A stretch of DNA of 64,000 nt from Acidobacteriota bacterium. GTDB taxonomy: Bacteria > Acidobacteriota > Terriglobia > Terriglobales > Acidobacteriaceae. Below, piece by piece: positions 5,258 to 13,054 of this stretch. The stretch spans positions 1 through 64,000 of the forward strand of contig JAJZME010000065.1 of assembly GCA_021803035.1 (NCBI GenBank). The letters are read 5' to 3'. Position 1 is the first letter of the stretch. Each line of letters begins with the position of its first letter. The notes below the pieces were generated by a model. It made no database searches. It saw only the letters and a list, made by a program, of their open reading frames with translations, and was not told the DNA's origin. Made by a program: the position numbers and the translations under genes.

Positions 5258-5716
5258 ATGATTTTCCTTACGCGGCGGGCCACATTTTCCGCTTCGCATT
5301 ATTACTGGAACGAGGCGTGGACGAAGGAAAAGAACGAAGAGGTTTTTGGGCGCTGCGCCAACCGCAATGGCCACGGCCACAATTACACGCTTGAGGTGAC
5401 GGTGGCCGGCGAGCCGGATCCCGTGACCGGCTTTGTGGTCGATCTGAAATGGCTCAAGGACGTGATCGAGCGCCAGGTGCTGGCGGTCTACGATCATCGG
5501 CACCTGAATCTGGAGGCGCCGGAGTTCGCCACGGCAATTCCGACCACGGAAAATATCGCCATTGCGGCGTGGAAGCGGCTGGAACCGGCGGTAACAGCGG
5601 CCGGCGGAGCCCGGCTTAACCGCGTGCGCGTCTACGAGACGCCGGAGATCTTCGCCGAGTATTGGGGGCCGGACGGACAAGGGCCCGGCGGCGCAAAAGA
5701 CAGAGGTGAGCCGTGA
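5258..5716 (+). CDS. 6-pyruvoyl-tetrahydropterin synthase family, copy 1 (catalytic residues intact)
   Basis: This 152-residue protein is of the PTPS/QueD fold. The zinc histidines are in FSASHYYW (H14) and NGHGHNY (H39, H41). The catalytic cysteine is C33 in GRCANRNGHGH. The Asp-His pair is D79-H80 in YDHRHLN, and the substrate-binding Glu is in VYETPE near the end. The spacing C-x5-HGH matches the animal-type PTPS better than the short QueD type. The product could be 6-pyruvoyl- or 6-carboxy-tetrahydropterin. An AGAGGA sequence precedes the ATG. Its last four bases overlap the GTG of a second copy, and folE, which makes the substrate dihydroneopterin triphosphate, follows. Confidence 0.85.
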   Translation: MIFLTRRATFSASHYYWNEAWTKEKNEEVFGRCANRNGHGHNYTLEVTVAGEPDPVTGFVVDLKWLKDVIERQVLAVYDHRHLNLEAPEFATAIPTTENIAIAAWKRLEPAVTAAGGARLNRVRVYETPEIFAEYWGPDGQGPGGAKDRGEP

Positions 5717-6120
5717 AGGCCTACTTCGGCCGCCGCTGCATGCTGAGCGCCAGCCACCGGCTGCACGCGGAGCTGCTCAGCGCCGAAGAGAATCGCGCGG
5801 CGTATGGAAAGTGCAACAATCCTTACGGCCACGGGCACAATTATGTAGTGGAAGTCCTGGTGGGCGGACAGGTGGATGCGGAGACGGGCATGGTGCTGAA
5901 CCTGGCGGTGCTGGATGAGGTGCTGAAAAAGGCGGTGCTTGAGCGCTTTGACGGCGCGAATTTGAACCTGGACCCCATGTTTGCGAATCGTGTGCCGACC
6001 ACGGAGAATCTTTGTAGGGCGGTCTTCGAGCTGTTGAAGGGCTCGTTTGCGCCGGCCGAACTGGTGCGCGTGCGCGTCGAGGAGACGGAGAACAACTTCT
6101 TCGAGTATTGCGGAAATTGA
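5713..6120 (+). CDS. 6-pyruvoyl-tetrahydropterin synthase family, copy 2 (catalytic His replaced)
   Basis: This 135-residue paralogue starts at GTG and overlaps the previous stop by 4 bp (GTGA), so it is probably translationally coupled. The zinc site is intact (SASHRLH, H15; GHGHNY, H40 and H42), and so is the cysteine (C34 in GKCNNPYGHGH, nearly the animal PTPS motif). The Asp-His pair of the catalytic triad is broken: the motif reads FDGANLN, with glycine 81 where histidine is expected. Copy 1 keeps the pair. Copy 2 may be a structural partner in a mixed hexamer, or may catalyse a different reaction; this is inference. folE begins 52 bp downstream. Confidence 0.83.
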   Translation: MKAYFGRRCMLSASHRLHAELLSAEENRAAYGKCNNPYGHGHNYVVEVLVGGQVDAETGMVLNLAVLDEVLKKAVLERFDGANLNLDPMFANRVPTTENLCRAVFELLKGSFAPAELVRVRVEETENNFFEYCGN

Positions 6121-6172
6121 CACGGAAATTTGCCAGGTAGCCCTATTCCCCAGGGCAGGAGGAGGATGAAGA

Positions 6173-6799
6173 GTGGCGCAGCCGATAGCAGTGAGCAAGG
6201 CGGTTCGCAGAGTGGCGGAGGTTGACGAGGGCCTGAGCGGCTATAGCACCGCGGAGATTTACCGCGAGCTTTTGAGCCGGCTGGGCGAAGACCCCGCGCG
6301 CGAAGGCCTGCTGGCCACGCCCACGCGTGTCGAGAGGTCCATGGCTTTTCTGACCAAGGGCTACACGGAAGATCCGCACCGCATTCTGCGCGGTGCGCTG
6401 TTTGACGTCGCGTATGACGAGATGGTGATTGTCAAGGATATTGAGATGTTCTCGCTCTGCGAGCATCATCTGCTGCCATTCTTCGGCAAGGTGCATGTGG
6501 CGTATATTCCCAAGGGCAAGGTGATCGGGCTGAGCAAGATTCCGCGGCTGGTGGAGGTTTTTGCGCGGCGGCTGCAGGTGCAGGAGCGGCTGACGCGGCA
6601 GATTGCCGATGCCATTCAGGAGGCGATTGAGCCGCAGGGCGTGGGCGTGGTGATTGAGGCGCGGCACCTGTGCATGATGATGCGCGGCATTGAAAAACAG
6701 CATTCGTCCACGGTGACCTCGGCGATGGTGGGCTGCTTCCGGCAGAAGGAGACGCGGACGGAGTTCCTGTCGCTGGTGCGGGCGCAGGGGGCGGTGTAG
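6173..6799 (+). CDS. folE: GTP cyclohydrolase I
   Basis: This 208-residue protein converts GTP to 7,8-dihydroneopterin triphosphate, the entry step to folate and tetrahydropterins. The zinc ligands are visible in [20 protein letters not shown] (Cys and His) and [10 protein letters not shown] (second Cys). The length matches bacterial FolE. The start is GTG with a strong GGAGGAGG about 8-10 nt upstream; a nearby ATG is out of frame. It follows the two pterin synthase genes and precedes truB by 31 bp, so the four are probably one operon. The pairing suggests a dedicated pterin cofactor or deazapurine route. Confidence 0.95.
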
Positions 6800-6830
6800 C
6801 CGAACCCGGCAACTCGAATAGATTAGTTAA

Positions 6831-7715
6831 GTGAACGGCCTTTTAGTCATAGACAAACCCGGCGGCATGACCAGCCACGACGTTGTTGCGCGTTTGCGCA
6901 GGATTGCAGGCGAGCGGTCCATCGGGCATCTGGGGACGCTGGACCCGATGGCAACGGGCGTATTGCCGTTGCTATTGGGCAAATACACGCGCCTGGCGCA
7001 GTACTTTTCCACCGCTGAAAAAACCTACACGGGCGCGATCCGCTTTGGCTTTGCCACCGACACCTACGATGCCGACGGTGAGCCGACGGGGCCGGACAAC
7101 TGGACTCCGGGCGCGCTTGCGCTCGACATGGTTCGCGCAGCGGCGGCGCGCTTCCAGGGCGAGATGGAGCAGATGCCGCCGGCGTTTTCCGCCAAGAAGA
7201 TTGGCGGGAAGCCGGCCTACAAGCTGGCGCGCGAGGGCAAGCCGGTGGAGCTGAAGCCGGCAAAGATTCGCATTGCCGCCTTTGAGATTATTGCGCTGGA
7301 GGGCGCGGAAGCGAGCTTCATGATTTCAGTGAGCGCGGGTGGCTACGTGCGTTCGGTGGCGCACGAGCTGGGGCGCGATCTGGGAATTGGCGCACATCTG
7401 AGCCGGCTGCGGCGCACGCAGGCGGGGGTCTTCACGATTGAGCAGGCGCATATGCTGGATGAGCTGCAACCGCTGGCCGGAGACACGGCGGCGCTGGAGG
7501 CGCTGTGCGTGCATCCGCGCAGCCTGCTGCCGGAGATGCCGGCGGTGACCGGCGATCCGGTTGCGCTGGGCCGGCTGCGCAACGGCGCGCAGGCGAATCT
7601 GCCCGATTTTTCGCAGGCGCAGGTGGTGAAGGTCTTTGCCTCGCAGCGCGAAATGGTGGCAATTGCCAGGCGCGTGGCGGGGACGCTGTTTCAGCCGGTG
7701 GTGGTGATGGGGTGA
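6831..7715 (+). CDS. truB: tRNA pseudouridine(55) synthase
   Basis: This 294-residue protein makes the pseudouridine at position 55 of the tRNA T arm. The N-terminal motif NGLLVIDKPGGMTSHDVV and the catalytic-Asp segment HLGTLDPMATGVLPLLLG (about residues 36-53) are diagnostic. ARLxRxQAGxF-like residues (SRLRRTQAGVF) and a C-terminal PUA-like region follow. Translation starts at GTG. No strong ribosome-binding site is visible, consistent with coupling to folE just upstream. Confidence 0.95.
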   Translation: MNGLLVIDKPGGMTSHDVVARLRRIAGERSIGHLGTLDPMATGVLPLLLGKYTRLAQYFSTAEKTYTGAIRFGFATDTYDADGEPTGPDNWTPGALALDMVRAAAARFQGEMEQMPPAFSAKKIGGKPAYKLAREGKPVELKPAKIRIAAFEIIALEGAEASFMISVSAGGYVRSVAHELGRDLGIGAHLSRLRRTQAGVFTIEQAHMLDELQPLAGDTAALEALCVHPRSLLPEMPAVTGDPVALGRLRNGAQANLPDFSQAQVVKVFASQREMVAIARRVAGTLFQPVVVMG

Positions 7716-9439: not shown

Positions 9440-9722
9440 TCAATGCGCAGCGATTCGCCAAGCCGAAGGAAGATCCCGCCTGCTGGTTCGCTCGACAGGA
9501 GCTGTGCGCCGGCATGAGGCTCCACGAACGTTCGGCGTAGGAGGTCCTGCTGGCGGGATTGCCGAATGGGGAGTGGCACGATCTGAATTTTTTGCGAGGT
9601 TATAGGCGGCCGGGAGGCCGTCCTCTCCTTTTTGAGCCCGAGGCGGGCGCATGGAGGGGGTCTGGTGAATCGCGAAAAGGCTGAAGATGCCTTCAGTCTC
9701 ATCTTGTATTGGAAAACGAGAT

Positions 9723-9750
9723 TGCTTTTTATTCGCCGGCCATTTAAAAT
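9723..9750 (+). promoter_or_regulatory. Sigma70-like promoter for the sulfite reductase leader
   Basis: TTGCTT (9723-9728) and TAAAAT (9745-9750) are separated by 16 bp and form a good vegetative promoter. Seven bases separate the -10 box from the ATG at 9758, so transcription would be expected to begin at or within a base of that ATG, giving a leaderless mRNA. This is predicted from sequence only. Confidence 0.6.
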
Positions 9751-9757
9751 TCTTTCC

Positions 9758-9796
9758 ATGCAAACTCTGACCTGTTGTCGCTGCTGTACGCTGTAA
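9758..9796 (+). CDS. Cysteine-rich leader peptide (putative attenuator uORF)
   Basis: The short frame encodes MQTLTCCRCCTL followed by TAA; 4 of 12 residues are cysteine, in a CCRCC cluster (codons TGT TGT CGC TGC TGT). There is no Shine-Dalgarno sequence, and the predicted transcription start coincides with the ATG, so it may be translated leaderless. An intrinsic terminator lies 60 nt downstream and the sulfite reductase gene 118 nt downstream. Ribosome stalling at the Cys codons when cysteinyl-tRNA is scarce would be expected to favour readthrough. Analogous leaderless polycysteine leaders are known in mycobacteria. Function here is inferred. Confidence 0.7.
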   Translation: MQTLTCCRCCTL

Positions 9797-9855
9797 CGCG
9801 CGCGCAGGTGATGTGGGTCTGACAGTTTGCTCCAAAATCCACGGTTTCTCTGACG

Positions 9856-9887
9856 CCCGCGATTGAGCCTTCGCCCTCGCGGGTTTT
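9856..9887 (+). terminator. Intrinsic terminator/attenuator in the sulfite reductase leader
   Basis: CCCGCGA (9856-9862) and TCGCGGG (9877-9883) form a perfect 7-bp GC-rich stem with a 14-nt loop, directly followed by TTTT. It lies between the cysteine-rich leader ORF and the start of the sulfite reductase gene, with no gene in between to terminate, which points to attenuation. I could not identify a convincing antiterminator partner. Confidence 0.65.
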
Positions 9888-9914
9888 CTATTGCACAAAT
9901 CAAATGAGGACAAG

Positions 9915-11612
9915 ATGACGGGACCGAATTCTGCGAAAGAGACCAAAGCGCAGCGCACGGAACGGCTGAAGCACGAAAAGAACCCCTGGGAGGTATTCGA
10001 CGAGGTGCGAGCCTTTGCGCGCGAAGGGCGCGGCAGCGTGCTGCCGGAGTGGGCTTCGCTTTACTTCAAGTGGTGGGGCATTTATACGCAGGGCGATGGC
10101 GCGGGCGTTACCGGAGGCAAGGGCGGCGAAGGACTGGCGACGGAGTGGTTCATGATGCGCATCGGCATCCCGAATGGCATTGTTTCGGCGCGCCAACTCC
10201 GCACCATTGGCGGGCTGGCGCGCAGGTATGGGCGCAATCTGGCGGATATTACGGTGCGGCAGAATATTCAGCTTCACTGGCTGACGGTCGAGTCGCTGCC
10301 GGAGGTGGTGGACGCGCTCAATGCAATTGGGCTTTCGCCCAAGGGCGCATGCGGCGATGTGGTGCGCAATGTGACCGGCTGCCCGCTGGCGGGAATCGCG
10401 GCCGATGAGAGGATTGACGCCTCGCCGATTGCGCTCGAGGTTGCGAAGAGGCTGGTTGGCAATTCCGAGCTTTATAACCTGCCACGCAAGTTCAAGATCT
10501 CCGTTACCGGGTGCCCGAGCTGGTGCAGCTATCCCGAGATCAACGATATTGCCCTGACGCCGGCGGAGCGCGATGGCGAGGCGGGGTTTTCGCTGCGCGT
10601 GGGTGGAGGGCTGTCGAAGGAGCCGCATCTTGCCGAGCGGCTTGACGCATTTGTTGGCCCGCAGCAGGCGGTGCGGGTGACGCAGGCGGTGGCGGAGATC
10701 TTCCGCGACCAGATGGGGCTACGCGAAAGCCGCGACCGGGCGAGACTGAAGTACCTGTTCCTGAAGGAAGGCTGGACGGCGGAGCGTTTTCTGGCGGAGT
10801 TGCAGGGGCGGCTGGAGTTCGCGCTGGAACCAGCCGGCGATGAGCAGGTCCCCGACGATGTGCATCGCGATCATGCCGGGATTCATCCGCAGCGGCAGCC
10901 GGGGCTGGCTTATGTGGGCGCTTCGGTGCTGCGCGGGCGGGTGACCGGCGAACAGCTAGAGGCGGCGGCGGAGCTGGCCGAGCGCTTCGGCAGCGGCGGG
11001 CTGCGCGCCACGGTTTCGCAGAACCTGATCTTCACCGACGTTCTCTATAGCAAGACCGGAGAGCTGGCGCGAGAGCTGGAGCAGATCGGCTTGCGGGTGG
11101 AGGGCTCGCCGTTCTGGCGCGGGGCGATTGCGTGCACAGGCACGGAGTTCTGCAAGCTGGCGATTACGGAGACCAAGGGCTTTACACGGTGGCTGGTGGA
11201 GGAGATGGAAGAGCGGCTGCCGCAGTTCGACGAGCAGCTCAAGCTGCACGTGACCGGCTGCCCGAACGGGTGCGGCCAGCACTGGATTGCGGATATCGGG
11301 CTGGAAGGCAAGAAGATCAAGCACGACGGCGCGATGACCGACGCTTACTACTTCTGCCTGGGCGGCGCGGTGGGCAGGCACGCGGGGATTTCGCGTCCGG
11401 TGGGCTACCGGTGCCCGGCGGCGCTTGTTCCGGACGCCATTGAGCGGCTGCTGCGGCAGTACCTGGCCGGGCGCGGGCGGGGTGAGAATCTGCGCGAGTG
11501 GTTCGGGCGGCATACGAACGATGAGCTGCGGGCCCAGCTCGCCGGTGAAGAGCTGGAGCCGGTGGAACGCGACCTGCCATCGGGGCATGTGCCGGTTGCC
11601 ATGGCGGAGTGA
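9915..11612 (+). CDS. Ferredoxin-dependent assimilatory sulfite reductase (siroheme/4Fe-4S)
   Basis: This 565-residue protein contains two ferredoxin-like half-domains and two siroheme/4Fe-4S half-domains. The cluster cysteines are visible in CTGTEFCKLA (about 407-413) and GCPNGCGQ (about 448-454), the C-x5-C and C-x3-C pattern. The family includes both nitrite and sulfite reductases (NirA/SirA). Sulfite is favoured here by the Cys-rich leader and by the siroheme synthase directly downstream; nitrite remains possible. I chose the ATG at 9915 because GAGGA lies upstream, over a TTG eight codons earlier. Expected reaction: sulfite to sulfide with six electrons from ferredoxin, in the cytoplasm. 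Confidence 0.88.
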   Translation: MTGPNSAKETKAQRTERLKHEKNPWEVFDEVRAFAREGRGSVLPEWASLYFKWWGIYTQGDGAGVTGGKGGEGLATEWFMMRIGIPNGIVSARQLRTIGGLARRYGRNLADITVRQNIQLHWLTVESLPEVVDALNAIGLSPKGACGDVVRNVTGCPLAGIAADERIDASPIALEVAKRLVGNSELYNLPRKFKISVTGCPSWCSYPEINDIALTPAERDGEAGFSLRVGGGLSKEPHLAERLDAFVGPQQAVRVTQAVAEIFRDQMGLRESRDRARLKYLFLKEGWTAERFLAELQGRLEFALEPAGDEQVPDDVHRDHAGIHPQRQPGLAYVGASVLRGRVTGEQLEAAAELAERFGSGGLRATVSQNLIFTDVLYSKTGELARELEQIGLRVEGSPFWRGAIACTGTEFCKLAITETKGFTRWLVEEMEERLPQFDEQLKLHVTGCPNGCGQHWIADIGLEGKKIKHDGAMTDAYYFCLGGAVGRHAGISRPVGYRCPAALVPDAIERLLRQYLAGRGRGENLREWFGRHTNDELRAQLAGEELEPVERDLPSGHVPVAMAE

Positions 11613-11677: not shown

Positions 11678-13054
11678 ATGAGCTTGTTGCCCATCTTTTT
11701 GAAACTCGATGGCCGGCGGGGGCTGGTGGTGGGTGCGGGCGCGGTGGCGCAGGACAAGATCGCCAGCCTGCTGAAGAGCGGCGTGCGACTGCGCGTGGTT
11801 GCGCCTGAGGCGCGGGCCGAGGTGCGGGCATTGGCCGGTGAAGGCAAGCTGGAATGGATTGCGCGGGGCTTTGAGCCGGGAGATCTGGAGGGCAGCTTTG
11901 TGGTGATTGCGGCGACGGATTCGCCGCAGGTGAACGCGGAGGTGTATCGCGAAGCCGTGGGGCGCGGGATTCTGTGCAACAGCGTGGACGATGTTCCGCA
12001 CTGCGATTTCTTCTTCGGCTCAGTGGTGAGCCGGGGCGAGCTGCAGATTGCCATTTCGACGGCGGGCGAAAGCCCGGCTGTGGCGCAGCGGCTGCGGCGG
12101 GAGATCGACGAGCAGTTGCCGGCGGATCTGGGGCCGTGGCTGGCCAGGTTGGGTGAGCTGAGGCGCGAGGTACTGGTTACGCATCCGCGCGGCGAAGAGC
12201 GCCGGCTGCTGCTGCACGAACTGGCGCGGCGGCAGATTTGCGATTCGGCACAGTGCTCGACGAAGCAACTGGCGCGGACGGGCAGGGAAGCGACGCGGGC
12301 GGCGGCGGGGCGGGTCTATCTGGTTGGCGCAGGGCCGGGCGATCCGGAGTTGCTAACGGTGAAGGCATTGCGGCTGATCGAGTCCGCCGACGTGGTGCTG
12401 CACGACGATCTGGTGCCGCGGGCGATTCTGGATCTGGCCGCGCCGGAGGCTGAGATTGTGAATGTGGGCAAGCGCTGCGGTGTGAAGCGGATTACGCAGG
12501 AAGAGATCAACGAGCTGATGATTGCGCATGCGCAGGCCGGACGGAGCGTGGTGCGGCTGAAGAGCGGCGACCCGCTGCTGTTTGGGCGCGCCGCCGAGGA
12601 GATGGGCGCGCTGGGCGAGGCGGGCGTGGATTTTGCGGTGGTTCCGGGCATTTCGGCTGGTTTTGCGGCGGCCGCGTCGCTGGGGCGCTCGCTGACCGAC
12701 CGCGAGTGGGCATCGAGCGTGACGTTTTCCGCGGGGCATCATGCGCAGTCGCATAACCGGTCGCAGTTGCCGGCCGCGGAAGATGCGACCCGCGTGGTCT
12801 ATATGCCGGGGCGCGACCTGCGGCTGCTGGCCGAGCAGTGGCTTGTGGAAGGACTGCCGGCCGATCTTCCCTGCGCCGTGGTTGCGCACGTTTCGCAGGC
12901 GGACGAACAGGTGCATTACACCACGCTTGGTGCGCTGGGCGATGCTGAGCAGATGCCGGCGCCCAGCGTGCTGATTGCCGGCTGGGCGGTTCGGGAGATG
13001 GCGGCGAATGCGAGGGGCGAATCGGGCGCACCGGCGGCCGTATGCGTAAAGTAA
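11678..13054 (+). CDS. cysG: Siroheme synthase, fused CysG type
   Basis: This 458-residue bifunctional enzyme has an N-terminal precorrin-2 dehydrogenase/sirohydrochlorin ferrochelatase region (about 1-200) with the NAD-binding GLVVGAGAVAQDK. A uroporphyrinogen-III C-methyltransferase domain (about 212-450) shows VYLVGAGPGDPELLTVKA, VVRLKSGDPLLFGRAAEE and the PGISAG motif. Together they convert uroporphyrinogen III to siroheme, the prosthetic group of the upstream reductase. AGGAGA lies about 9 nt before the ATG. The 65-bp gap to the upstream gene suggests co-transcription under the same leader. Confidence 0.93.
   Translation: MSLLPIFLKLDGRRGLVVGAGAVAQDKIASLLKSGVRLRVVAPEARAEVRALAGEGKLEWIARGFEPGDLEGSFVVIAATDSPQVNAEVYREAVGRGILCNSVDDVPHCDFFFGSVVSRGELQIAISTAGESPAVAQRLRREIDEQLPADLGPWLARLGELRREVLVTHPRGEERRLLLHELARRQICDSAQCSTKQLARTGREATRAAAGRVYLVGAGPGDPELLTVKALRLIESADVVLHDDLVPRAILDLAAPEAEIVNVGKRCGVKRITQEEINELMIAHAQAGRSVVRLKSGDPLLFGRAAEEMGALGEAGVDFAVVPGISAGFAAAASLGRSLTDREWASSVTFSAGHHAQSHNRSQLPAAEDATRVVYMPGRDLRLLAEQWLVEGLPADLPCAVVAHVSQADEQVHYTTLGALGDAEQMPAPSVLIAGWAVREMAANARGESGAPAAVCVK

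Follow-up and report, generated by a model that had tools for sequence, protein, structure and literature searches.

A conserved Cys-codon leader with a predicted terminator/antiterminator switch upstream of a NIR/SIR-family reductase gene in Acidobacteriaceae

The DNA analysed here, the window, is a 64,000-nt stretch (positions 1 to 64,000, forward strand) of contig JAJZME010000065.1 from GCA_021803035.1, the genome assembly of a soil bacterium of the Acidobacteriaceae; it corresponds to contig C58 of a 3.9 Mb genome. It carries a gene for a NIR/SIR-family reductase followed by the siroheme synthase gene cysG, and immediately ahead of the reductase gene lies the element considered here: a short open reading frame (ORF) with clustered Cys codons, preceded by promoter-like hexamers and followed by an intrinsic terminator (Table 1), which together very probably form a cysteine-responsive, ribosome-mediated transcription attenuator with a leaderless leader peptide. 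The leader starts at the ATG at 9758 and runs for 12 codons, MQTLTCCRCCTL, to its stop codon, and it has four Cys codons (TGT at 9773, TGT at 9776, TGC at 9782 and TGT at 9785); an earlier note, made from the sequence of this DNA alone, had likewise read four clustered Cys codons.

Table 1. Positions of the leader element and adjoining genes in the window
Feature	Positions	Strand	Basis
-35-like hexamer TTGCTT	9722..9727	+	Sequence; TTG in >90% of genus-alignment rows at the same place
-10-like hexamer TAAAAT	9745..9750	+	Sequence; 7 nt between hexamer and ATG
Leader peptide ORF MQTLTCCRCCTL, putatively leaderless	9758..9796	+	Sequence; conserved in relatives
Regulatory codon cluster TGT TGT CGC TGC TGT (Cys Cys Arg Cys Cys)	9773..9787	+	Sequence; codon table across relatives
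Predicted antiterminator 5' arm	9797..9818	+	Fold of the segment that a ribosome at the first Cys codon would expose; pair counts
Predicted antiterminator 3' arm, sharing bases with the terminator 5' arm	9837..9861	+	Fold; pair counts
Intrinsic terminator: CCCGCGA 9856-9862, loop of 14, TCGCGGG 9877-9883, TTTT 9884-9887	9856..9887	+	
Possible Shine-Dalgarno TGAGGA of the reductase gene	9905..9910	+	Read from sequence
NIR/SIR-family reductase, putative assimilatory sulfite reductase	9915..11612	+	Pfam NIR_SIR 4.6e-47; below all NCBIfam equivalog cut-offs
Siroheme synthase CysG	11678..13054	+	NCBIfam PRK10637, 433.5 bits against a cut-off of 400

By itself, the window ORF is weak evidence, because a comparable ORF (by rule, an ATG ORF of 8-40 codons with at least three Cys within six codons, inside the 300 nt upstream) also arose in 37 of 2000 sequences made by dinucleotide shuffling of this upstream region; conservation makes it strong evidence. 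A search at E <= 0.001 matched the reductase in 75 of 80 genomes of the genus, a count that takes in fragments and distant paralogues; with five genomes that have only fragmentary or distant matches (G005, G020, G033, G052 and G072) set aside, 70 loci were examined. A leader was obtained from 68 of them; L071, a divergent reductase, looks unlike the others, and L025, which has 90 nt of upstream sequence, was too short for the ORF rule. Without L025, 69 regions remain, and the rule detected an ORF in 65 of them, as against 19 of 1380 shuffled sequences and 3 of 69 antisense strands; the earlier note would have given up its reading had the Cys cluster lacked conservation in close relatives, and this count leaves that reading in place. 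The four misses have two Cys each (L030 and L059), spread Cys (L057) or a stop before the cluster (L068). The last of these, on contig C40 of genome G019, reads MQG* ahead of the Cys cluster with the terminator kept, and is a naturally broken reductase leader; in the same genome, the element occurs once more, ahead of a reductase remnant that is fused to cysG (L180).

The same rule found an ORF in 64 of 79 loci of a titled collection, as against 24 of 1580 shuffled sequences and 1 of 79 antisense strands, a count that covers the ORF and not the terminators, uses 79 of 80 loci (L207 is without upstream sequence) and is not independent of the genus count, because the two collections overlap, with some contigs of equal length in both. 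Most of the titled loci whose reductase is closest to that of the window come from metagenome-assembled genomes of Acidobacteriaceae, and those passing the rule include Edaphobacter, Granulicella and Candidatus Sulfotelmatobacter entries; the reductase genes of Edaphobacter modestus and Granulicella rosea carry the Cys-cluster ORF, and two further Granulicella entries and one Terriglobus entry of this collection fail the rule. In a family search, 20 of 24 listed reductase loci showed a Cys leader by eye, two being genus members already counted. Two reductase loci of genus g62 (L079 and L093) are without a Cys leader in the 350 nt upstream, an apparent loss or a different promoter.

Codons, start spacing and folding were compared in a set of 120 leaders, which omits L025, L046, L057, L068 and L071 of the genus and L073-L075, L079, L080, L093, L095, L143 and L158 of the other loci. 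Their 536 Cys codons comprise 400 TGT and 136 TGC, and this provides the synonymous variation that the earlier note had named as a check. The codon between the Cys pairs varies over the classes (Arg, Ala, Gly, Cys, Pro and others), and the family-type leader resembles MSLCPTPVxCCACCCALRRTCG. The conserved tail of the leaders, PLRAHR in the genus and ALRRTCG elsewhere, is accounted for by its RNA, which encodes the 5' arm of the predicted antiterminator; the window leader ends five codons before those of most relatives, its TAA preceding the conserved tail, yet the bases of the tail remain. Within the genus, the TGTTGTCGC tract is nearly invariant and nucleotide conservation is high there and in the downstream CGCGCGCACAGGTGACCTGGG, as would suit a metabolite-binding riboswitch with the same terminator, in which the Cys ORF is a by-product of conserved RNA. 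Over the classes, however, the nucleotides vary, those of this tract included, and the Cys are kept, with exchange of TGT and TGC and a variable codon between the pairs. The 65 genus leaders encode 63 distinct peptides, and Rfam 15 returned no match even at E <= 1 in 9650-9950 and only three tRNAs at gathering scores in the whole window; we therefore regard a riboswitch as very improbable.

The promoter proposed in the earlier note, TTGCTT-16-TAAAAT, holds for both hexamers and not for the spacer, which is 17 nt. Because a consensus promoter scan reports no site at this place (TTGCTT agrees with TTGACA at 3 of 6 positions), the window promoter rests on comparison. The gap between the end of a TANNNT and the ATG is 6 nt for 60, 7 nt for 33 and 8 nt for 5 of the 120 chosen ATGs (98/120), and other gaps up to 30 nt are rare (4 nt in 8 leaders, 12 nt in 4, 1 nt in 3 and six further gaps in one leader each), a histogram that is partly selected, because the starts of the other leader classes were picked among nested ATGs by their -10 score; the 65 genus reductase starts were picked without use of the -10. 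The count of 101/101 in-frame ATGs is circular, because leaders were selected as in-frame ORFs, and is not relied on. A gap of 6-8 nt would place the transcription start at, or adjacent to, the A of the ATG, and this is also the predicted start in the window.

The terminator follows the leader stop codon after 59 nt, in agreement with the perfect 7-bp stem and TTTT that the earlier note had placed about 60 nt past the ORF. Of the seven window stem pairs, six are preserved in at least 63 of the 64 genus sequences, and none of ten shuffles produced a terminator as good as that of the window. The leaders kept for folding likewise have a stem and T-rich tail, whose real score was reached by only 7 of 1200 shuffles of the 120 leaders (2/650 for genus reductase, 0/180 for cysD, 0/130 for receptor, 4/170 for family reductase and 1/70 for other leaders). 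These counts, and the reductase start codon, which in the window is located 27 nt past the T-run and outside the hairpin, speak against a model in which the same leader senses cysteine through translational or Rho control, as proposed for mycobacterial leaders, and the hairpin is incidental. Such control would be in keeping with the mycobacterial cys leaders, which are without a conserved terminator (PMC1262725) and are described as attenuating translation in passages of citing papers, and the weak equilibrium switching of most of the leaders studied here (see below) leaves room for it. We consider it unlikely, though less so than a riboswitch.

The earlier note had found no obvious antiterminator, a point that has to be revised, since one is predicted between the leader and the terminator when folding is confined to the bases that a ribosome sitting on the Cys codons would leave exposed, as far as the terminator 5' arm. 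This fold gives one arrangement in the genus and the same layout with different sequence in the other classes; the 5' arm is the coding leader tail in most genus relatives and lies just 3' of the stop codon in the window. Two alignments were used, A1 with 64 of 68 genus leaders (without L046, L049, L057 and L071) and A2 with 46 of 49 leaders of other classes (without L072, L076 and L165; L182 had been removed earlier). On full A1, RNAalifold returns the terminator only, because antiterminator and terminator are mutually exclusive, and on full A2 it adds to the terminator a hairpin that surrounds the Cys tract. The antiterminator pairs 81.8% of cells in A2 (39-57% in slid versions) and 88.0% in A1 (29-54%), percentages that are partly built in, because the terminator 3' arm was left out to obtain the fold. 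In A2, 29 cells are changed on both sides, compared with 16.2 after shuffling (reached by 0/500) and 8-20 in slid versions, and the covariation score is 0.197, compared with 0.140 (0/500) and 0.063-0.134. The A1 score is 0.135, compared with 0.121 shuffled (3/500) and 0.033-0.115 slid; further pair types were reached by 13/500 shuffles in A1 and 25/500 in A2, and in all these comparisons kinship can lift sequences above shuffles without structure. Antiterminator folding energies relative to shuffles are informative only for receptor leaders (mean z -2.5) and, in part, for family reductase leaders (-1.3).

The element also recurs before other genes, a point beyond the earlier note. A covariance model built from the genus reductase leaders (R1) detected 35 further same-genus sites at E <= 3.1e-5, all of which were examined, and with five second sites examined in other genera this gave 40 sites in all. 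They are followed by cysD (18), an outer-membrane receptor (13), cysH (2), YeiH (2), a 1-Cys peroxiredoxin (2), Porin_O_P (1), the cysG-bearing reductase remnant (1) or a contig end (1, L158), with representatives identified by profile, 16 cysD sites by protein search and the rest by eye; cysD and cysH in relatives were confirmed by profile. A second model built from the other leader classes without the genus reductase leaders (R2) has matches at E <= 0.001 in 62 of the 80 genus genomes. Among 247 genomes across the phylum it hits 8 at E <= 0.01, each belonging to the same family as the window; since some divergent leaders recognised by the ORF rule escape R2, the element may in truth be more widespread. 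Since an element of the same layout precedes other sulfur genes, the window element is probably one member of a cysteine regulon, which the element family as a whole probably represents. This recurrence ahead of genes of one pathway also bears on the idea that the ORF encodes a functional cysteine-rich micropeptide or short metal-binding protein and not a regulator, with which the conserved Cys cluster would agree; however, lengths and tails differ widely over the classes and a terminator lies between peptide and gene, and of the explanations considered here we give this one the least credence.

Several individual sites merit description. Two of the receptors (L301 and L302) are full length, with CarboxypepD_reg and OMP_b-brl_4 domains, and we take the receptor to be Oar-like and of the TonB type; in one genome its neighbours are an isochorismatase and two MFS transporters, in the other they carry VWA and MEDS domains, and they point to no clear substrate. 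At L161 and L175, a Cys-rich ORF and a terminator precede the 1-Cys peroxiredoxin gene (by profile for L161), a possible link from cysteine supply to peroxide defence. The YeiH site L143 has a Cys tract and terminator without an ATG leader, and a GTG start would fit. In the window genome, no second site was found at E <= 0.1 with R1 or at E <= 0.001 with R2. Its cysD gene carries a second type of Cys leader, MNRESRHFSCCRLSNILDGCPR (L285, upstream of G000:C77:35662-36609:-; consensus CCxLSNIFDGC), where by eye ACGGGTG is complementary to a downstream CACCCGT, ahead of a GCCGG/CCGGC hairpin; this type was seen in 11 of 14 cysD upstream regions of the window lineage, and one of the misses, L279, is truncated.

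In the proposed model, RNA polymerase would begin at, or adjacent to, the leader ATG and a ribosome would load at the 5' end of the transcript. When Cys-tRNA is scarce, the ribosome would stall at the first Cys codons and leave the segment from 9797 free to pair with 9837-9861, consuming the terminator 5' arm and allowing read-through into reductase-cysG. When Cys-tRNA is plentiful, the ribosome would reach the stop codon and mask part of the antiterminator 5' arm, so that the terminator at 9856-9887 could form. For the window, equilibrium folding predicts a terminator probability of 0.99 when no ribosome is present; placing one on the first Cys codon lowers this to 0.17, and with the ribosome on the stop codon it is again 0.99. 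Applying as criterion for a switch a terminator probability below 0.5 when stalled at the first Cys codon and above 0.5 at the stop codon, the predicted switching leaders include 9 of 65 genus reductase, 8 of 13 receptor, 5 of 17 family reductase, 1 of 18 cysD and 2 of 7 other leaders.

A number of observations weigh against this model. The predicted equilibrium switch is present in only 25 of the 120 leaders, with the terminator favoured in the rest even when the ribosome is stalled; for these, the model has to suppose that the antiterminator, being transcribed earlier, folds before the terminator can. In the window, the switch is predicted to be lost again with a ribosome on the last Cys codon (terminator probability 0.86), and since the leader ends early, a ribosome on its stop codon would cover only the base of the antiterminator 5' arm. 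Antiterminator energies relative to shuffles are unremarkable for the genus class (mean z -0.54), for cysD (-0.28) and for the window (0.14). The 14 double-changed cells of A1 exceed shuffles (4.4; reached by 0/500) but give no support, because slid versions have 11-22 such cells; likewise, A1 has 6 pairs with a double change, compared with 3-8 slid, and such pairs were reached by 41/500 shuffles in A1 and 35/500 in A2. Moreover, 15 of the 79 titled loci are without an ORF by the rule, and the match of R2 to the window leader (E = 7.6e-5) is not fully independent, because the cysD, cysH and receptor rows of R2 came via R1. Covariation thus backs the predicted antiterminator clearly in A2 and in a mixed way in A1. 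For the window element, the start site, translation, stalling, switching and cysteine response are read from sequence and remain predictions. The element itself is real and conserved, with a regulatory-codon ORF before a pathway gene and an intrinsic terminator between leader and gene, and the attenuator reading, which the earlier note had reached from promoter, peptide and terminator, is well supported by sequence comparison, through the shuffle-tested terminator and the predicted antiterminator with its covariation.

The gene under this putative control is less precisely defined by its profile scores. The best NCBIfam equivalog for the window reductase is a nitrite reductase model (373.4 against a cut-off of 594), and because the protein scores under every such cut-off, the name sulfite reductase rests on context. 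From the adjoining cysG and the other genes that this leader type accompanies, we infer a sulfite reductase; of the designation sulfite reductase-cysG in the earlier note, cysG and the NIR/SIR family are thus supported by profiles and sulfite specificity by context only. Elsewhere in the window, at 5258-7715, two tandem ORFs resemble 6-pyruvoyl-tetrahydropterin synthases and are followed by one resembling GTP cyclohydrolase I and one resembling truB, all by eye.

Classical trp and his leader-peptide attenuators combine regulatory codons with a mutually exclusive antiterminator and terminator. The window element shares the regulatory codons, with an antiterminator that is here predicted, and differs in that it would sense cysteine and in place of a leader with a Shine-Dalgarno sequence has a transcript that would begin at the ATG; that it works like a trp-type attenuator is well supported, on comparative grounds. 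In mycobacteria, leaderless Cys-rich short ORFs precede cysteine-responsive genes (Canestrari et al. 2020, as cited in passages of PMC13236596, PMC9031893 and PMC9094748), and the citing passages mention six leaderless polycysteine ORFs predicted in Mycobacterium tuberculosis. For Mycobacterium and others, Cys leader peptides ahead of cys operons, with no terminators, have been predicted (PMC1262725). These leaders share with the window element a short Cys-rich ORF, which is predicted to be leaderless here; in contrast, as the passages describe them, they act by translation attenuation and are without a conserved terminator, whereas here an intrinsic terminator and a predicted antiterminator are found, and they belong to a different phylum. 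The window element thus resembles the mycobacterial leaders at its 5' end and is not a member of that family as described, a separation made by description and not by sequence. A second relative is uORFC-8-2, a proposed ribosome-mediated attenuator of the cysteinyl-tRNA synthetase gene cysS in Rhodobacterales (PMC8632094), which has a tandem-Cys leader ORF, an intrinsic terminator and the same proposed logic. As far as the accessible part of that source goes, it concerns this one gene, has two Cys codons usually at positions 14-15 and is presented with no mention of a leaderless start, whereas the elements described here precede several sulfur genes and have a putative leaderless start; cysS follows neither the window element nor any of the 39 further sites at which a downstream gene can be seen. 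For Acidobacteria, the available text of PMC2965389 states that predicted attenuators of such phyla almost never have known function, and that of PMC4833913 counts leader genes without the word cysteine. A literature search found no cysteine attenuator reported in Acidobacteriota, its coverage excluding most subscription journals and the survey by Lopatovskaya et al. 2010. The parts are thus known, from the mycobacterial leaderless polycysteine ORFs and the Rhodobacterales cysS terminator, and their combination was not found in the literature searched.

Finally, we think it likely, if with less assurance than for the window element itself, that sulfur assimilation in Acidobacteriaceae is organised as a regulon under one family of leaderless polycysteine attenuators with terminator/antiterminator switches that sense Cys-tRNA charging; its members would be sulfite reductase-cysG, cysDN, cysH, the Oar-like TonB-type receptor, YeiH, 1-Cys peroxiredoxin and the porin. 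Acidobacteria have many Oar-like receptors, for most of which the substrate is not known, and a regulon of this kind would mark the receptor as an importer of sulfur compounds and give one group of these proteins a role in sulfur metabolism. The attenuator model points to specific point mutations that can be checked in cultivated strains. If it is true, Acidobacteria would have a defined family of amino-acid attenuators, a leaderless transcript would be able to drive an attenuator with a terminator/antiterminator switch, and a multi-operon cysteine regulon would exist outside mycobacteria.

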